From the NCBI GenBank assembly GCA_020852275.1, contig JADZBE010000022.1, positions 1 to 64,000 of the forward strand: a stretch of 64,000 nucleotides of DNA, in the 5' to 3' direction. The translations under genes and the position numbers were made by a program. This stretch comes from Phycisphaerales bacterium (GTDB taxonomy: Bacteria; Planctomycetota; Phycisphaerae; UBA1845). How positions within the stretch are numbered: position 1 is the stretch's first letter; each line of letters opens with the position of its first letter. The notes beneath the pieces are model-generated. The model had not been told where the DNA came from, did no database searches, and was given only the letters and a program-made list of their open reading frames with translations. Of the stretch, positions 30,809-39,613 are shown one piece after another.

Positions 30809-31408
30809 CGTGAGCCTCTCCCTCCCTCCAGGCACCCCCGCCAGCCGCTCGCCGACCCGTTGACAGGGGGGTCCGTGTCCCGGTTCGCATTTCACAGAAG
30901 GGCACGATCCCGGCACCGTCGGAACACCCATCGCATCCACGCGCTTCCCCGAACCGCGGGCAACGAAACGAGGGGACAATGCCGCCCAAGGTCGCTGCGC
31001 GGGGAACGTGCGGTCAAGGCCGCCGGACCTGTCTCCCCCCATGGCCTCGATCTCCCCGGCGAATGCGCGGAGCGACCAAAGTTCTCCCTGCTCCATTCTT
31101 CGCGTGAGCAGGAGCCTTGTCAATTGGGTTATCGGTTCGTCCATCCCTGACAGCGGGACAACTGCAGTTCAGGGAATGCAGCACCGACTGGTGCGGCACC
31201 CGCTCTCTGAGGCGGCCGTAGAATGCGGTTGCCCTGGGCGGCTTGGCCGGCTTGCCGCAGACATGTAGGATGCCGCCCCCGGCATCGGGATCGGCGGAGG
31301 AAGGACTGATCCGGTGCCTGGCTATTGAGCGTTGTTTTGTGGGTGGGGCGTGCGGCGCGGGTCCTCGATTGCCCGTCCGGGTCAACAGGTTGGATGGATG
31401 TACATCGC
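30809..31408. other. Divergent intergenic region
   Basis: About 600 bp between the minus-strand secreted-protein gene and the plus-strand PrpD gene. I see no repeat of the families above and no credible gene; frames open on both strands lack ribosome sites. Confidence 0.4.
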
Positions 31409-32977
31409 ATGACGGCGGGTCAAACCATAACAAAGTGGGTGAGCGGGCTGCGGTACGAAGATCTTCCGGACCGGACGATTCACGAGGTGAAGCGCCGCGT
31501 GATCGACTCCCTCGCCACCTGCCTCGGCGCGTATCATTCCAATCCAGGGCGCATTGCCCGCGAGCAGGCGCAGTCGGTCTCCGTGCCGGCGCGCGGGGCG
31601 AGCGTGTGGGGGACGAAGCATCGCACCACGCCCGACCTCGCCGCCTTCGCCAACGGCGCCATGGTGCGCTATCTCGACTACAACGACACCTATCTCAGCC
31701 GCGAGCCGGCGCATCCGTCGGACAACCTCTCCGCCGCCGTCGCCGTCACGCAAGCCACGCGGCGCACCGGGCGCGACCTGATCCTCGCCGCCGTGATCGG
31801 CTATGAGCTGCAATGCCGCATGTGCGACGCGGACAGCCTGCGCAAGGGCGGCTGGGACCACGTCGTGTACGGCGCGCTCTCCACGGCCATGCTCGCGGGC
31901 AGGTTGTGGGGGCTGTCGGAAGCGCAGCTCGAGCACGCGCTGGGACTGGCCGGCGTGTGCAACATCGCCACGCGCCAGACGCGCACGGGGCAGATTTCAG
32001 ACTGGAAGGCCTGCGCGTTCTCCAACGCGGCGCGCAACGGCGTCTTTGCGGCGGACCTCGCGCGACGCGGGCTGACCGGACCGTTTGAAATACTCGAAGG
32101 TCCGAAGGGTCTGATGAAGCAGCTCAACGTGCCGGGGCTGCGCGATCTCGTGCTCTCGCCCGACGGGGAGTTCATGATCGACCGGACGTACATCAAATAC
32201 TGGCCCGCGGAATACCACTCGCAGTCGGCCATCGACGCCTGCCTGCAGCTTCGCCCGCAGGTGGCGGGGCGCGAGATTTCGAGCGTCCTCATCAAGAGCT
32301 TCGAAGCGGCCGTGAGCATCATTGGCTCCGAGCCGGAGAAGCTCCGCCCCACGTCGCGCGAAACGGCGGACCACTCGATGTTCTACTGCTGTGCGGCCGC
32401 GCTGGTGGACGGCGACGTGACCCTGGCGACGTTCGACGAGGAGCGGCTTGCCGATCCGCGCCTGCTGAATCTGATCGACCGGACGACGATCATCGAAGAT
32501 GTGGAGCTGAACAGCGGCTACCCGAAGGGCATCCCCAATGACATCGCCATCACCTGCGCCGACGGCACGGTGGCGCGCCAGCGCGTCGATTTCCCGCGCG
32601 GGCACGCCGAGAACCCCATGACCGACGAGGAGGTCGTCGCCAAGTTCCGCCGGCTGGCGGGCGGCGTCATCAGCGACAAGGAAGCCGACCGCGTGCTGAA
32701 GCTCTGCTGGAAACTGGACACGCTCAAGGACGTGTCGCCGGTGTTCGAGTTCAAAGTGCTCGGCGCGGGTCGCGGCACGGGGGCAGGACGTGGTGAGGGC
32801 TCATCGAAACGAGGGAAGGGCGCGGCGCCAACGCCGAAATCCTCCAAGCCGGTGAAGCGAAGCGCCAGCGCGAAGCGCGGCGGCGCCGGCCGACGCACGA
32901 CGCGTGGCGCTTCCAAACCTGTCACGCGCTCGACACGCAAGCTTGCGGCCAAAGCCAGCAAGAAGCGCGGTCGTTGA
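31409..32977 (+). CDS. MmgE/PrpD-family protein with histone-H1-like C-terminal tail
   Basis: 522 residues from ATG 31409 (MTAGQTITKWVSGLRYEDL); an ATG at 31394 is possible. PrpD core markers: VKRRVIDSLATCLGAYHSN, LAAFANGAMVRYLDYNDTY, PSDNLSAAVAVTQ, GWDHVVYGALSTAMLAGRLWGL, QISDWKACAFSNAARNGVFAADLA, and SETADHSMFYCC-like RETADHSMFYC. This is the 2-methylcitrate dehydratase/aconitate-decarboxylase fold; no prpB or prpC is near, so the substrate is open. From about 450 the sequence becomes Lys/Arg/Ser/Ala/Pro-rich (KRGKGAAPTPKSSKPVKRSA ... KLAAKASKKRGR), a tail foreign to the family. Confidence 0.85.
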   Translation: MTAGQTITKWVSGLRYEDLPDRTIHEVKRRVIDSLATCLGAYHSNPGRIAREQAQSVSVPARGASVWGTKHRTTPDLAAFANGAMVRYLDYNDTYLSREPAHPSDNLSAAVAVTQATRRTGRDLILAAVIGYELQCRMCDADSLRKGGWDHVVYGALSTAMLAGRLWGLSEAQLEHALGLAGVCNIATRQTRTGQISDWKACAFSNAARNGVFAADLARRGLTGPFEILEGPKGLMKQLNVPGLRDLVLSPDGEFMIDRTYIKYWPAEYHSQSAIDACLQLRPQVAGREISSVLIKSFEAAVSIIGSEPEKLRPTSRETADHSMFYCCAAALVDGDVTLATFDEERLADPRLLNLIDRTTIIEDVELNSGYPKGIPNDIAITCADGTVARQRVDFPRGHAENPMTDEEVVAKFRRLAGGVISDKEADRVLKLCWKLDTLKDVSPVFEFKVLGAGRGTGAGRGEGSSKRGKGAAPTPKSSKPVKRSASAKRGGAGRRTTRGASKPVTRSTRKLAAKASKKRGR

Positions 32978-33166: not shown

Positions 33167-33823
33167 TTACTTCCGCTTCAGCGTCTCGACCCAGTGGATG
33201 AATCCCGCTTCGTTCTCATCGCTGCCGGGCGAGGCGAACCCGAACTTCTGAACTTCGGTCACGGTGCCCTTGGCGCCGCCGATGAAGCGATACGTTTCGT
33301 TGAAATTTTCGCCGTGCTGTGTCAGAAACAGCAGATCGTCGCCTGCGTGGATGAGGCTGGCGGACGCGGGGGGGACTTCGATTTGATAGTGCAGCGGCTG
33401 CCCCTCGTTCGAGTTCAGTTCGATATCGACGAGCCGATACAGCAGGGTCGATTCGCTGAGCCGCTTGGCTTCTTCAAACGCCACCACGGCATGGACGTCG
33501 TCCTTGAGCACGCCCACGTCCTTGTGTCGGGAGACGATGTCGAAAATCAGCACGTCATGCCCGTCGAGCTTGTCCGCGCGGATGGACAGCCGCGTGGGAT
33601 AGCGGGAGGCCGCGCTGATGGGCGGCTCCGCGCCGGCGCCGGCCTCCTTCGGCCAGACCTCGTACGCATATTGCCCCTCGCCCGACCATTCCCCGACGGG
33701 TAGCTTCATTCCCGACGGCGCGGCGGCCTGCTGAAAACCGAGTTGCAGCAACACCGTCGTCCCCGTGACACAGAGCACGCCCAGCATCAGCGAACCTCGA
33801 CGCAGCCAGTGAACGCGAGTCAT
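33167..33823 (-). CDS. Secreted hypothetical protein
   Basis: 218 residues from the ATG at 33823 with GGAAGG upstream. The N-terminus (MTRVHWLRRGSLMLGVLCVTGTTVLLQLGFQQAAA) is a signal peptide or anchor. The body is beta-rich (GEWSGEGQYAYEVW, SASLIHAGDDLLFLTQHG, ETYRFIGGAKGTVTEVQKFGF), perhaps a lipocalin/calycin-like barrel. No motif for enzyme activity. It stands alone between PrpD and a MITE-like element. Confidence 0.65.
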   Translation of the reverse strand: MTRVHWLRRGSLMLGVLCVTGTTVLLQLGFQQAAAPSGMKLPVGEWSGEGQYAYEVWPKEAGAGAEPPISAASRYPTRLSIRADKLDGHDVLIFDIVSRHKDVGVLKDDVHAVVAFEEAKRLSESTLLYRLVDIELNSNEGQPLHYQIEVPPASASLIHAGDDLLFLTQHGENFNETYRFIGGAKGTVTEVQKFGFASPGSDENEAGFIHWVETLKRK

Positions 33824-34348: not shown

Positions 34349-35401
34349 TCACTCGCGGCGGCGGCGAGTTTCGCCATCGAGGAATTTCCGCTCCCGCGAC
34401 GTCAGCGAACTCATGCCCTCCTTCGAAATTTTGCCGAGGATGCGATCAAACTCGAGGTTGCGGCGCTGCGCCTCCTCGCGGTCGCGGGCGAACCGCCGCA
34501 CGGCCTGCGCCGCCCGACGCCGGGCGAAAAACCCGTGCTTCCGCTGAGTCTGGGCACCGCCGTCAAACGCCCCGAACCCGCGGGAAAAGTCGTAGCCCAG
34601 GTCCGAGTCGCCGTACGCCTCCTCCTTCGCCATCATCCGGCGCTGGCGACACGTCACATAGCCGAACACGGCCAGGCACAGCAGCCGCACTTCCGACGTG
34701 AGCAGCGCCACCACGCCGAATGCGGCGGCGCCGAACATCCCGATCGTCGTGGCCATCAGGGTGGCGTACCGATGTCCCCGCCGCTTCCAGAGGATGGCGT
34801 GGGCGATCTGCCCGCCGTCCATGGGATAGAACGGCAGGAGCACGTTGAAGAGAAGGAGGATGTAATTCGTGCCGAACACCACCAGCACGATCCACGAGAG
34901 GACGTCGCGGGGACTGAGCGCCGGATCCACCGGTGTGTACGGGTGGATCGGGTTGAGCGGCACGACTCCCCAATCGCCCGCGCGGATCACGAGGAACGTG
35001 GCGGTAAGCAGGCAGATCACCCCGTTCACCAGCGGACCGCAGATCACCGTGACGAGGTGCGCCCGCGGCGTGTGCGGCGGCTGAACGTATGCCAGACCCC
35101 CGAGCGGCCACAAGAGAATCTGGTCCGCCTCGCCGCCCATCCACCGCGAGCCGAAGCAGTGCCCGAACTCGTGCAGCAGCACGGAGGTGAACAGAATCGC
35201 CGAGGGCGCGATCGACCAGCCGAGGATGCTCCACGTCGATCCGCCCGCTTTCGCCGCGTCCGCCGCGTCGCGGATCACTTGAAAAACCACCCAGAGGATG
35301 AAGATGATGTGCAGACGGATGTCGATAGCGAACGCCCGCCCGACCTTGACCGACCAGTTGATCGGGTTGTCCATCGCGTTGTCGGGTCGATATACGCTCA
35401 T
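34349..35401 (-). CDS. M50 site-2-type intramembrane protease
   Basis: 350 residues. Hydrophobic segments carry SVLLHEFGHC (His77, Glu78, His81 zinc site) and LLPFYPMDGGQ (Asp195 ligand). Additional membrane spans include LHIIFILWVVFQVI and CGPLVNGVICLLTATFLV. So this is an active-looking zinc metalloprotease of the S2P/SpoIVFB type that cuts membrane-anchored regulators. It begins 24 bp after the rhomboid stop without its own ribosome site, suggesting one operon. The last 32 residues (DRILGKISKEGMSSLTSRER) match the rhomboid's tail, the DILxKIxxxGxxSLT motif (DUF6576-like). Confidence 0.88.
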   Translation of the reverse strand: MSVYRPDNAMDNPINWSVKVGRAFAIDIRLHIIFILWVVFQVIRDAADAAKAGGSTWSILGWSIAPSAILFTSVLLHEFGHCFGSRWMGGEADQILLWPLGGLAYVQPPHTPRAHLVTVICGPLVNGVICLLTATFLVIRAGDWGVVPLNPIHPYTPVDPALSPRDVLSWIVLVVFGTNYILLLFNVLLPFYPMDGGQIAHAILWKRRGHRYATLMATTIGMFGAAAFGVVALLTSEVRLLCLAVFGYVTCRQRRMMAKEEAYGDSDLGYDFSRGFGAFDGGAQTQRKHGFFARRRAAQAVRRFARDREEAQRRNLEFDRILGKISKEGMSSLTSRERKFLDGETRRRRE

Positions 35402-35425
35402 GGCGTCGGTCAGGCTCGCGGGGAA

Positions 35426-36352
35426 TCAGCGGCGCGAGTAGTCGCCGCGCATGCGCTCGGAAATCTCCTGCAGGCGGCCGCGCTCCGCCGCGGACAGCGC
35501 GCTCAGTCCGCCCGCCTTGACCTTGCCCAGCAGCGCGTCCAGCTCGGCCTGATCGCGCTCGTACTCGCTGGGGCGGAAACTCGGTTCGACAATCACGGTG
35601 ACGGACGGTCGCGCCGCGGGCGCTCGATGGAAGACCTGCCGCACGGAATCCCGGAATCCCCGCGCGTCCGACGTGCGGCGCCACACCCAGCCCGCGCCGG
35701 CGAGGAGACCGACGAGGTGGCACACGTCTCCGCCGGCGTTGGGCCCGCGCTGCCAGGCGTTCAGAAAGTACATCGCCCCGAAGATCAGCGCCAGCACCCG
35801 GATCGGCATGGGAAACAGACCGTAAAAAACCGACACGCGCATGTGCGGGAACATCACCGCGGCCGCGCCCATCATGGCCAGCACGCAGCCCGAGGCGCCA
35901 AGGAGAAAGCTGGGCCCGAAGTAGCCGACGCCGCAGAGTACCAGGTAGAGGACGTTGCCCAGCAGCCCGCTGACCAGATAGACCGTCAGCGTCGCGCGCG
36001 AGCCGAGCCGCTGCTCCACCGCAGTGCCGAACATCCACAGCCCGAACATGTTCATCGCCACGTGCCAGAAGCCGGCGTGAAGGAACAGGGCCGTGACCAG
36101 CCGCCAGACCTGCAAGCCCTGAACGCTGCGCGAGTAATCGAGCACGCCCCAGTCGTAGATCGGACTGACGCCACCGCCGCGGCGCGGGGAGTCGGTCATC
36201 GCGCAGAGGAAGTAGATCGCCGCGTTGATCACGATAAGCTTGGCGACAGCGCTGCCGCGCCACCAGGCGCGCAGCCCGCCGCCGATCGACGGCGTGGACC
36301 AGCCGTCGTCATACGAAGCGCCGCGAGCGTATTGTCGATCTTGCCAACCCAT
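35426..36352 (-). CDS. Rhomboid-family intramembrane serine protease
   Basis: 308 residues, six or more hydrophobic segments. The catalytic dyad is present: GASG with Ser154 and GGDVCHLVGL with His212; LHAGFWHVAMNMFGLWMFG is the typical HxxxHxxxNM segment with His-Asn. So it should cleave membrane helices. The C-terminal tail DALLGKVKAGGLSALSAAER is shared with the M50 gene downstream. Immediately upstream of the ATG stands an AGCTAGCAGCCAGTAGC repeat instead of a normal ribosome site, as for the UbiA gene at 63059. Confidence 0.88.
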   Translation of the reverse strand: MGWQDRQYARGASYDDGWSTPSIGGGLRAWWRGSAVAKLIVINAAIYFLCAMTDSPRRGGGVSPIYDWGVLDYSRSVQGLQVWRLVTALFLHAGFWHVAMNMFGLWMFGTAVEQRLGSRATLTVYLVSGLLGNVLYLVLCGVGYFGPSFLLGASGCVLAMMGAAAVMFPHMRVSVFYGLFPMPIRVLALIFGAMYFLNAWQRGPNAGGDVCHLVGLLAGAGWVWRRTSDARGFRDSVRQVFHRAPAARPSVTVIVEPSFRPSEYERDQAELDALLGKVKAGGLSALSAAERGRLQEISERMRGDYSRR

Positions 36353-36530: not shown

Positions 36531-37073
36531 TCACGCTCGGCGATCCTCGCGGGCGAAGTACATGCCCAGCACCGCCAGGGTCTTGGCGTCCTCGATCCGC
36601 GCTTCCGCCAGCCAGGCGCGGACAGTGGAAATATCGACCACTTCTGTGCGGATGTCTTCGCCGGCGTCGAGGTTTTGGCCCACCCACTGCAACCCTCGCG
36701 CGACGAAGGCGTGCATCCGTTCGCTGAGGATGCCGGGGGACATGAAGAACTCGCCCAGCGGCGCAAGCTCCGACGCCCGGTAACCCGTCTCCTCGATCAG
36801 CTCCCGCCCTGCGGTGGTGATCGGTTCCTCGCCCGCCTCCCGCGTTCCGGCGGGTAACTCGAGCAGCTCCCGATCCACGGCGCAGCGGTAATTGTGGATC
36901 ATCACGATCCGGCCGGCGTCAAGCAGCGGCAGGATGACCACTGCGCCCGGGTGCAGGACGATCTCACGCGCGTACAGCCCGCCTCCCGTGCGTTCATAGG
37001 TCCGCCGCTCTACCCGGAAGAGCCGGGCGCGGAGCAGTTCCTCCGTTCGAATGCAAGGGTTTCTGCGCTGCAC
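36531..37073 (-). CDS. NUDIX hydrolase (ADP-ribose pyrophosphatase-like)
   Basis: 180 residues from a GTG at 37073 (VQRRNPCIRTEELLR) with GGAGG ten bases upstream; the frame stays open far upstream but reads as non-protein sequence. The NUDIX box is exact: GTREAGEEPITTAGRELIEE plus TGY (G-x5-E-x7-REUxEExGU). Preceding it are VILPLLDAGRIVMIHNYRCAVDRELLELPAG, the NudF-like segment that binds ADP-ribose. It hydrolyses a nucleoside diphosphate linked to X, most likely ADP-ribose. It lies downstream of a divergent secreted gene and before repeats leading to the rhomboid gene. Confidence 0.88.
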   Translation of the reverse strand: MQRRNPCIRTEELLRARLFRVERRTYERTGGGLYAREIVLHPGAVVILPLLDAGRIVMIHNYRCAVDRELLELPAGTREAGEEPITTAGRELIEETGYRASELAPLGEFFMSPGILSERMHAFVARGLQWVGQNLDAGEDIRTEVVDISTVRAWLAEARIEDAKTLAVLGMYFAREDRRA

Positions 37074-38470: not shown

Positions 38471-39613
38471 ATGGATGATCCTCGCGTCACCAACCGCCCG
38501 CTGCCCGTTCTGCGGGCCATGATCGACGCCATCGACCGCGACATGCTCCAGCTCATGGCGCGGCGCATGGCCATCGTCGGCGAGATTGCCGCCTTCAAGC
38601 GCGAGCACCAGGTTCCCATCCGCGACCGCTCGCGCGAGCGCGAGGTTATCGCCGACCGCTGCGGGCGCGCAGAAAAGCTCGGACTGCCGCGCGAGGAAAT
38701 CGAAGCCATTTACCGCCTTGTCCTGCTCACCAGCCGCGACCACCAGGCCTCCCTGCGCGCCGAGCTGCCCGTGGTCGTCGAGCCGAAAAGCGTGGCCGTC
38801 ATCGGCGGCAAGGGCGGCATGGGCGCGGTCATGGCCCGCCTCTTCGGCGACCTCGGGCACGCCGTCATGATCGCCGACCTCGACACCGAGCTGACGCCCG
38901 TCGAGGCCGCGAAGGCGGCGGATGTCGTGGTGGTCAGCGTGCCCATCGACGCGACGGAGCAGGTCATCCGGCAGGTCGGCCCGCATGTGCGGGCGGAGGC
39001 GCTGCTGATGGACGTGACGTCCGTGAAGGAGGCGCCGCTGAAGGCGATGCTCGAAGCCTCGCGGGCGTCCGTCGTCGGCACGCATCCGATGTTCGGCCCT
39101 GGCGTGCATTCGCTTCAGGGGCAGCGCGTCGTGCTGTGCAAGGGACGCGGAGAGGATGCGTACGCGTGGGTGCGCAAGATGCTCTCGGCCCGCGGCTTGA
39201 CCCTGACGGAAAGCACGCCGCAGGAGCACGACCGGGCGATGGGCCTGGTGCAGGTGCTCACACACTTCCAGACGCAGGTGTTGGGTCTCGCCCTCGCGCG
39301 GCTCGGCGTCAACCTCGACGAGACCCTTCGCTTCACGTCTCCCGCCTATCTCATGGAGCTGTACGTTGCCGCCCGCCACTTCGCCCAGTCCCCGCAGCTC
39401 TACGGGCCCATCGAAATGCGCAACCCGATCAAGGGCACGGTGACCCAGACATTCATCACCGCCGCCGCCGAGCTGGCGGACATCCTCAAGCAGGGCGACC
39501 AGCCGCGCTTTGAGGAAGTGTTCAACGAAGTCCGCACTTTCTTCGGCGCCTTCACCGACGAAGCCCTCGTCCAGTCGAGTTTCCTGATCGACCGGATGGT
39601 GGAGCGGTCGTAG
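38471..39613 (+). CDS. tyrA: Chorismate mutase-prephenate dehydrogenase (T-protein)
   Basis: 380 residues, matching the 373-residue E. coli T-protein. Residues 1-95 are an AroQ chorismate mutase (IDAIDRDMLQLMARRMAIVGEIAAFKREHQVPIRDRSRE). Then the NAD site VAVIGGKGGMGAVMARLFGDLG, VVVVSVPIDATEQVIRQ, LLMDVTSVKEAPLKAML, VGTHPMFGPGV, and helical EHDRAMGLVQVLTHFQTQVLGLAL. LMELYVAARHFAQSPQLYGPI aligns well with the E. coli C-terminal region. So it converts chorismate to prephenate and then to 4-hydroxyphenylpyruvate for Tyr. This fused form is typical of gammaproteobacteria and unexpected here. It stands alone. Confidence 0.9.
   Translation: MDDPRVTNRPLPVLRAMIDAIDRDMLQLMARRMAIVGEIAAFKREHQVPIRDRSREREVIADRCGRAEKLGLPREEIEAIYRLVLLTSRDHQASLRAELPVVVEPKSVAVIGGKGGMGAVMARLFGDLGHAVMIADLDTELTPVEAAKAADVVVVSVPIDATEQVIRQVGPHVRAEALLMDVTSVKEAPLKAMLEASRASVVGTHPMFGPGVHSLQGQRVVLCKGRGEDAYAWVRKMLSARGLTLTESTPQEHDRAMGLVQVLTHFQTQVLGLALARLGVNLDETLRFTSPAYLMELYVAARHFAQSPQLYGPIEMRNPIKGTVTQTFITAAAELADILKQGDQPRFEEVFNEVRTFFGAFTDEALVQSSFLIDRMVERS

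Follow-up and report, generated by a model that had tools for sequence, protein, structure and literature searches.

A rhomboid protease and an M50 site-2 protease encoded side by side in a planctomycete genome end in the same domain, DUF6576, and at the corresponding gene slot of related genomes the protease core has been exchanged for one of the other class while this tail was kept. Both genes lie in the window, the 64,000-nucleotide stretch of Phycisphaerales DNA analysed here (contig JADZBE010000022.1). The variation and core swaps at the slot, the persistence of the tail on catalytically dead rhomboids, and the helix-turn-helix modelled for both tails suggest a portable functional module. 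DUF6576 is documented here on a second, unrelated protease class and as exchanged between both classes. The features concerned are the following.

34349..35401, minus strand: M50 site-2-type intramembrane metalloprotease P0001, 350 aa, PDZ-less (PF02163, 49.2 bits; HEFGH and PMDGG motifs)
34376..34474, minus strand: DUF6576 tail of the M50 protein, residues 310-342 (PF20216)
34811..34834, minus strand: second active-site motif of the M50 protein, PFYPMDGG, residues 190-197 (from sequence; P190, P193, D195, G196 and G197 invariant in M50 alignment A1)
35159..35173, minus strand: zinc-binding HEFGH of the M50 protein, residues 77-81 (from sequence; H77, E78, G80 and H81 invariant in A1)
35426..36352, minus strand: rhomboid intramembrane serine protease P0002, 308 aa, predicted active (PF01694, 96.8 bits)
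35456..35557, minus strand: DUF6576 tail of the rhomboid, residues 266-299 (PF20216)
35717..35719, minus strand: rhomboid catalytic His212 (alignment with active relatives)
35888..35899, minus strand: rhomboid catalytic GASG, residues 152-155 (from sequence; rhomboid alignment A2)
36329..36352, minus strand: rhomboid N-terminal tag MGWQDRQY, in other families common to the M50 protease occupying the same slot
about 36531..37073, minus strand: NUDIX hydrolase gene upstream of the rhomboid, 5' end approximate (PF00293, 44 bits), the anchor of the slot across the class

The rhomboid and M50 genes share the minus strand and are separated by 24 bases. The closest NCBIfam to the NUDIX product is NudE, at a score under the NudE cut-off, and the gene adjoins the protease slot in most loci inspected. 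Elsewhere in the window, a 218 aa ORF without a Pfam match, whose N-terminal segment is hydrophobic, lies downstream (33167-33823, minus strand). The plus strand carries an MmgE/PrpD family protein with a long, histone-H1-like C-terminal extension rich in Lys, Arg, Ser and Ala beyond its enzyme domain (31325-32977) and a fusion of chorismate mutase with prephenate dehydrogenase (38471-39613). We also considered a defence system and ruled it out; neither protease was matched in PADLOC, and the NUDIX gene gave one weak match.

The original prediction, that the adjacent rhomboid and M50 proteins end in a shared DUF6576-like tail, held exactly as to residues and coordinates. Both proteins exceed the 27.3-bit gathering cut-off of DUF6576 (PF20216), a domain without known function. 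Searched as a whole protein with hmmscan, the M50 protease scored 36.7 bits (E 4.8e-9) and the rhomboid 30.0 bits (E 5.8e-7). In a six-frame genome search the scores were 40.4 and 33.6 bits, and the M50 tail searched alone reached 41.3 bits. The six-frame search of the 5,050,028-base genome returned these two matches only. As two independent matches above the cut-off in 5.05 Mb fall in neighbouring genes, chance similarity of the tails was ruled out. So was SHOCT or any other short C-terminal Pfam domain, as DUF6576 was the sole match even at E 10. Literature searches found no paper naming the domain, and searches on rhomboid or S2P in Planctomycetes gave nothing on it.

AlphaFold2 models both tails with confidence as a helical hairpin, in which a first helix, a turn at an invariant Gly, and a helix start of S-L-T/S lead into a second helix. 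In the M50 protein the helices span residues 291-328 and 335-349 with the turn at Gly329 (pLDDT about 87-93), and in the rhomboid 261-281 and 288-307 (pLDDT about 94-96). The C-terminal segments of the two proteins contain 26 and 18 Lys+Arg residues, so that by the positive-inside rule the tails would lie on the cytosolic side. The six-helix topology established for GlpG and SpoIVFB points to the same side. Polar residues are conserved at three positions of the tail alignment (Asp5, Lys10, and Glu23). Across the phylum, identity is 49-51% for tails versus 26-28% for cores, with tail conservation inflated by the tail-first sampling. Tail-tail similarity was 0.435 within and 0.419 between genomes (permutation p 0.011). 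Co-evolution of both tails with one partner is thus only weakly visible, and we set this signal aside as too weak to serve as evidence.

Ahead of the tails, both cores carry their active-site residues and look active. The rhomboid has the GxSG serine (Ser154), the catalytic His212, and the HxxxN residues His97 and Asn101, and Foldseek matched its model to GlpG structures. It thus resembles GlpG-type (S54) rhomboids in fold and predicted catalytic residues. To our knowledge GlpG itself lacks a DUF6576 tail, and no match to the domain was found in E. coli among the control genomes. Foldseek matched the M50 model to M. jannaschii S2P (3b4r; E 4e-11, TMt 0.80) and also to SpoIVFB (8vjl/8vjm), with which it shares the membrane fold, the HExxH and DG motifs, and the absence of PDZ. 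In a Pfam profile search the M50 protein gave no PDZ match, and no CBS match at E 0.1. Group III site-2 proteases are defined with a CBS domain (PMC10202637); the window enzyme is without it and has DUF6576 at its C-terminus instead. In SpoIVFB, the CBS domain contacts the substrate pro-sigma-K (PMC9042235) and sits at the place corresponding to DUF6576.

DUF6576 is phylum-wide in Planctomycetota and not confined to this operon. Within the GTDB-type family of the window genome, 48 of 51 genomes have the domain, usually matched twice at a spacing of about 1.1-1.3 kb. It is also present in 109 of 114 genomes of the order and in 266 of 294 genomes sampled from the phylum; many of the surveyed genomes are MAGs. 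We classified about 220 loci and inspected 301 tailed ORFs, counts of the latter being redundant between two genome collections. These ORFs comprised 146 M50 proteases, 144 rhomboids, 9 pseudo-rhomboids, and 2 unassignable ORFs, broken or truncated. Hence 299 of 301 were a rhomboid, dead or alive, or an M50 protease, and no tail was seen on unrelated proteins in the genome itself or in the inspected loci. The tailed M50 proteins across the phylum are PDZ-less and SpoIVFB/mjS2P-like. Nor is the tail missing from homologues: among 80 M50 loci fetched by core motifs, a set ranked by similarity to a tail-containing query and so not fully unbiased, 78 had it. The remaining two were a locus cut off by a contig end (L198) and a Gemmataceae protein (L232).

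M50 relatives were found in Phycisphaerae and in other Planctomycetota MAGs and genomes, for example BroJett003, Pan216, and the Phycisphaerales chromosomes CP070827, CP070691, and CP070772. The nearest, at 58-59% identity, have the same NUDIX-rhomboid-M50 order as the window. For the best plasmid-borne M50 relatives in other phyla, the alignment stops at about residue 266-284, ahead of the tail. The control genome of Bacteroides ihuae has a DUF6576 match; M50 carriers were surveyed within Planctomycetota.

The occupancy of the slot downstream of NUDIX differs between lineages, which we denote by family codes f1 to f8, the window belonging to f1 (G and L mark genomes and loci). The order is mostly NUDIX-rhomboid-M50 in f1 and f2, and NUDIX-M50-rhomboid in several Phycisphaerales. 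In f3, NUDIX-M50 occupies the slot and a tailed rhomboid lies at another locus. In f4-f8, NUDIX is followed by a single protease, either rhomboid or M50, in nearly all genomes examined. By hand count, the genes are adjacent in 32 of 37 same-family genomes having two DUF6576 matches. Within f7 and f8, the slot M50 and the orthologous rhomboid are nearly mutually exclusive genome-wide, and genomes with one orthologue retain only distant paralogues of the other, none of which overlaps a DUF6576 match. G092 and G093 are the exceptions: their slot holds the M50 gene, and a tailed rhomboid is encoded elsewhere. Both tailed proteins are likewise present at separate loci in G265, G157, and G221. Tandem pairs of one kind also occur, of tailed M50 genes in G119 (L160:3478-5846) and of tailed rhomboids after NUDIX in G311 (L097:7123-9009).

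A tag, M[GS]WxxRxY, begins the rhomboids, the pseudo-rhomboids, and the slot M50 proteins of f7/f8, and is absent from the window M50. Apart from NUDIX, the slot neighbourhoods yielded no conserved partner gene. In 28 loci of f1, f2, and f4-f7, L032, L072, and L083 among them, a divergent neighbour about 1.7 kb upstream on the opposite strand encodes an RseP-type site-2 protease (M50, several PDZ domains, 750-850 aa); it is absent from the window. In the swapped genus g82, an AAA ATPase gene with a weak Vps4 C-terminal match lies near the slot (L069:10039-11187, with a syntenic gene in L070), and it was not seen as a conserved slot neighbour in other lineages.

Shuffled labels fit the RpoB tree about as well as the actual slot occupants do. 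Over 27 genomes we counted 8 changes of occupant (at least 7 on well-supported branches) versus a shuffled mean of 8.8; the RpoB and core phylogenies are quick reconstructions, and the number of swaps beyond two clear cases depends on the tree. Those two cases are congeneric genome pairs in which the protease core has been replaced between flanks of 82-88% nucleotide identity and a tail of about 85% nucleotide identity. For example, the single-contig genomes G107 and G108 align at 82-88% to either side of the slot, have the NUDIX gene in common, and start the protease with the same MSWEHR. The core then diverges completely, rhomboid versus M50, and alignment resumes at the tail, which is about 85% identical in nucleotides and identical at 39 of 41 residues. 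The second pair, G098 (M50) and the draft genome G100 (rhomboid), has near-identical RpoB and the same pattern, with at most 4 differences in the last 48 residues. Since the M50 core of G099, from the same genus, is sister to that of G098, the G100 rhomboid is probably the newcomer, placed onto a resident M50 tail. Differential loss from a tandem ancestor could also produce such pairs and is possible but less likely, given that no tandem was found at the f4-f8 slot and that the G100 core sits on a long branch.

Selection has kept the protein sequence of the two swapped tails despite the different enzyme in front, as their dN/dS values are 0.035 and 0.062. Such a swap with the tail retained suggests that either enzyme is directed by it to one and the same task.

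The tail also outlasts catalysis. In the unlinked tailed rhomboids of f3, the Ser, His, and HxxxN residues are lost in 9 of 10 sequences, and the tenth could not be aligned. Tail identity among these pseudo-rhomboids is 59%, an upper estimate because the loci were found via the tail, versus 32% for the core. One f3 genome (G076, L046) has what appears from its residues to be an active-type tailed rhomboid in place of the dead one. Judged by these residues, catalysis is dispensable in f3 rhomboids while the tail is kept, which sets them apart from GlpG-type enzymes.

There is precedent for a bacterial rhomboid acting through a partner. YqgP of B. subtilis is an adaptor for FtsH, and its activity is dispensable for that role (PMC7231995). 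YqgP differs from the tailed rhomboids in working through a cytosolic domain at its N-terminus and in ending with TPR. The fission-yeast rhomboid Rbd2 recruits its AAA+ partner Cdc48 through a short SHP motif (PMC11555709); motif, kingdom, and partner all differ, so the analogy extends to the working principle only.

Our leading explanation, in which we place about even confidence, is that DUF6576 is a docking tail through which rhomboids, S2Ps, and pseudoproteases reach one shared client or partner in the cytosol. It would be a small cytosolic helix-turn-helix at the C-terminus of Planctomycetota intramembrane proteases, delivering its attached core, be it a zinc S2P, a serine rhomboid, or a rhomboid that has lost catalysis, to one dock, so that both proteases would serve one membrane-protein processing or quality-control route. 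In the window genome, the NUDIX-rhomboid-M50 unit would make both proteases; in other lineages one would suffice, the core at the slot having repeatedly been replaced by the other type. The dock could be a client, as with the SpoIVFB CBS domain, or an AAA+ protease, FtsH being the example from YqgP. The original prediction had already raised the idea that both proteases are recruited to a single partner. This fits a tail that persists on both proteins at unlinked loci, on a catalytically dead rhomboid, and across a change of core. More tentatively, the slot itself may be modular, with unrelated cores exchanged between a fixed N-terminal tag and a docking tail. The tail rather than the chemistry would then set the job, and within one pathway either protease class could do the work of the other.

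The strongest rival to docking is oligomerisation through the tails, giving rhomboid-M50 heteromers where both proteases exist and homomers where there is one. It would account equally well for most of the data: both tails are modelled as the same helix-turn-helix, the genes are adjacent in f1, f2, and several Phycisphaerales, and neither core replacement nor loss of catalysis conflicts with it. However, G265, G157, and G221 encode both tailed proteins at separate loci, many genomes have only one, and Asp5, Lys10, and Glu23 look to be more than a generic coiled contact needs. We regard this explanation as unlikely.

Two-step regulated proteolysis, also proposed originally, would have the rhomboid cut a substrate first and the M50 protease second, with the tail holding both. 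The adjacency of the genes in the window's family speaks for it, as do the RseP-type gene near the slot in 28 relatives and a fission-yeast rhomboid that cuts SREBP where animals use S1P and S2P (PMC11555709). Against this, f4-f8 keep a single protease whose identity changes, the f3 rhomboid partner appears catalytically dead, and G092 and G093 keep both proteases at separate loci. A two-step cut is thus not the general role of the tail, and an obligate rhomboid-then-S2P cascade as a general rule is contradicted by the single-protease families. Cooperation of the two enzymes is possible in f1, where both are kept; as the explanation of the tail, we consider the cascade improbable.

Alternatively, the tail could regulate its own enzyme, as a gate at the active site or as a turnover signal for a cytosolic protease. 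A short conserved C-terminal element beyond the membrane domain would suit such a role, and among S2Ps the subgroups are told apart by an added PDZ or CBS domain, the RseP PDZ acting in that enzyme's control (PMC10202637). But a gate shaped for a rhomboid is unlikely to suit an S2P core that has replaced it in place, and a rhomboid without catalysis has no use for one. A turnover signal is possible; self-regulation as a whole strikes us as quite improbable. Most implausible is that the shared tail is a functionless by-product of recombination between neighbouring genes: in both swaps the crossover does lie at the edge of the tail, which makes the tail a convenient stretch of homology if nothing more, but its low dN/dS, its retention throughout the phylum, and its persistence on dead and unlinked rhomboids all speak against this.

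With docking as our preferred reading, the shared tail gives a phylum-wide domain, DUF6576, a function to look for. The functions of most bacterial rhomboids and of many site-2 proteases are obscure because their substrates are hard to find, and the tail offers a bait whose binders should reveal the pathway in which the two classes act. A functional swap would represent a rare natural interchange of mechanistically unrelated intramembrane proteases.
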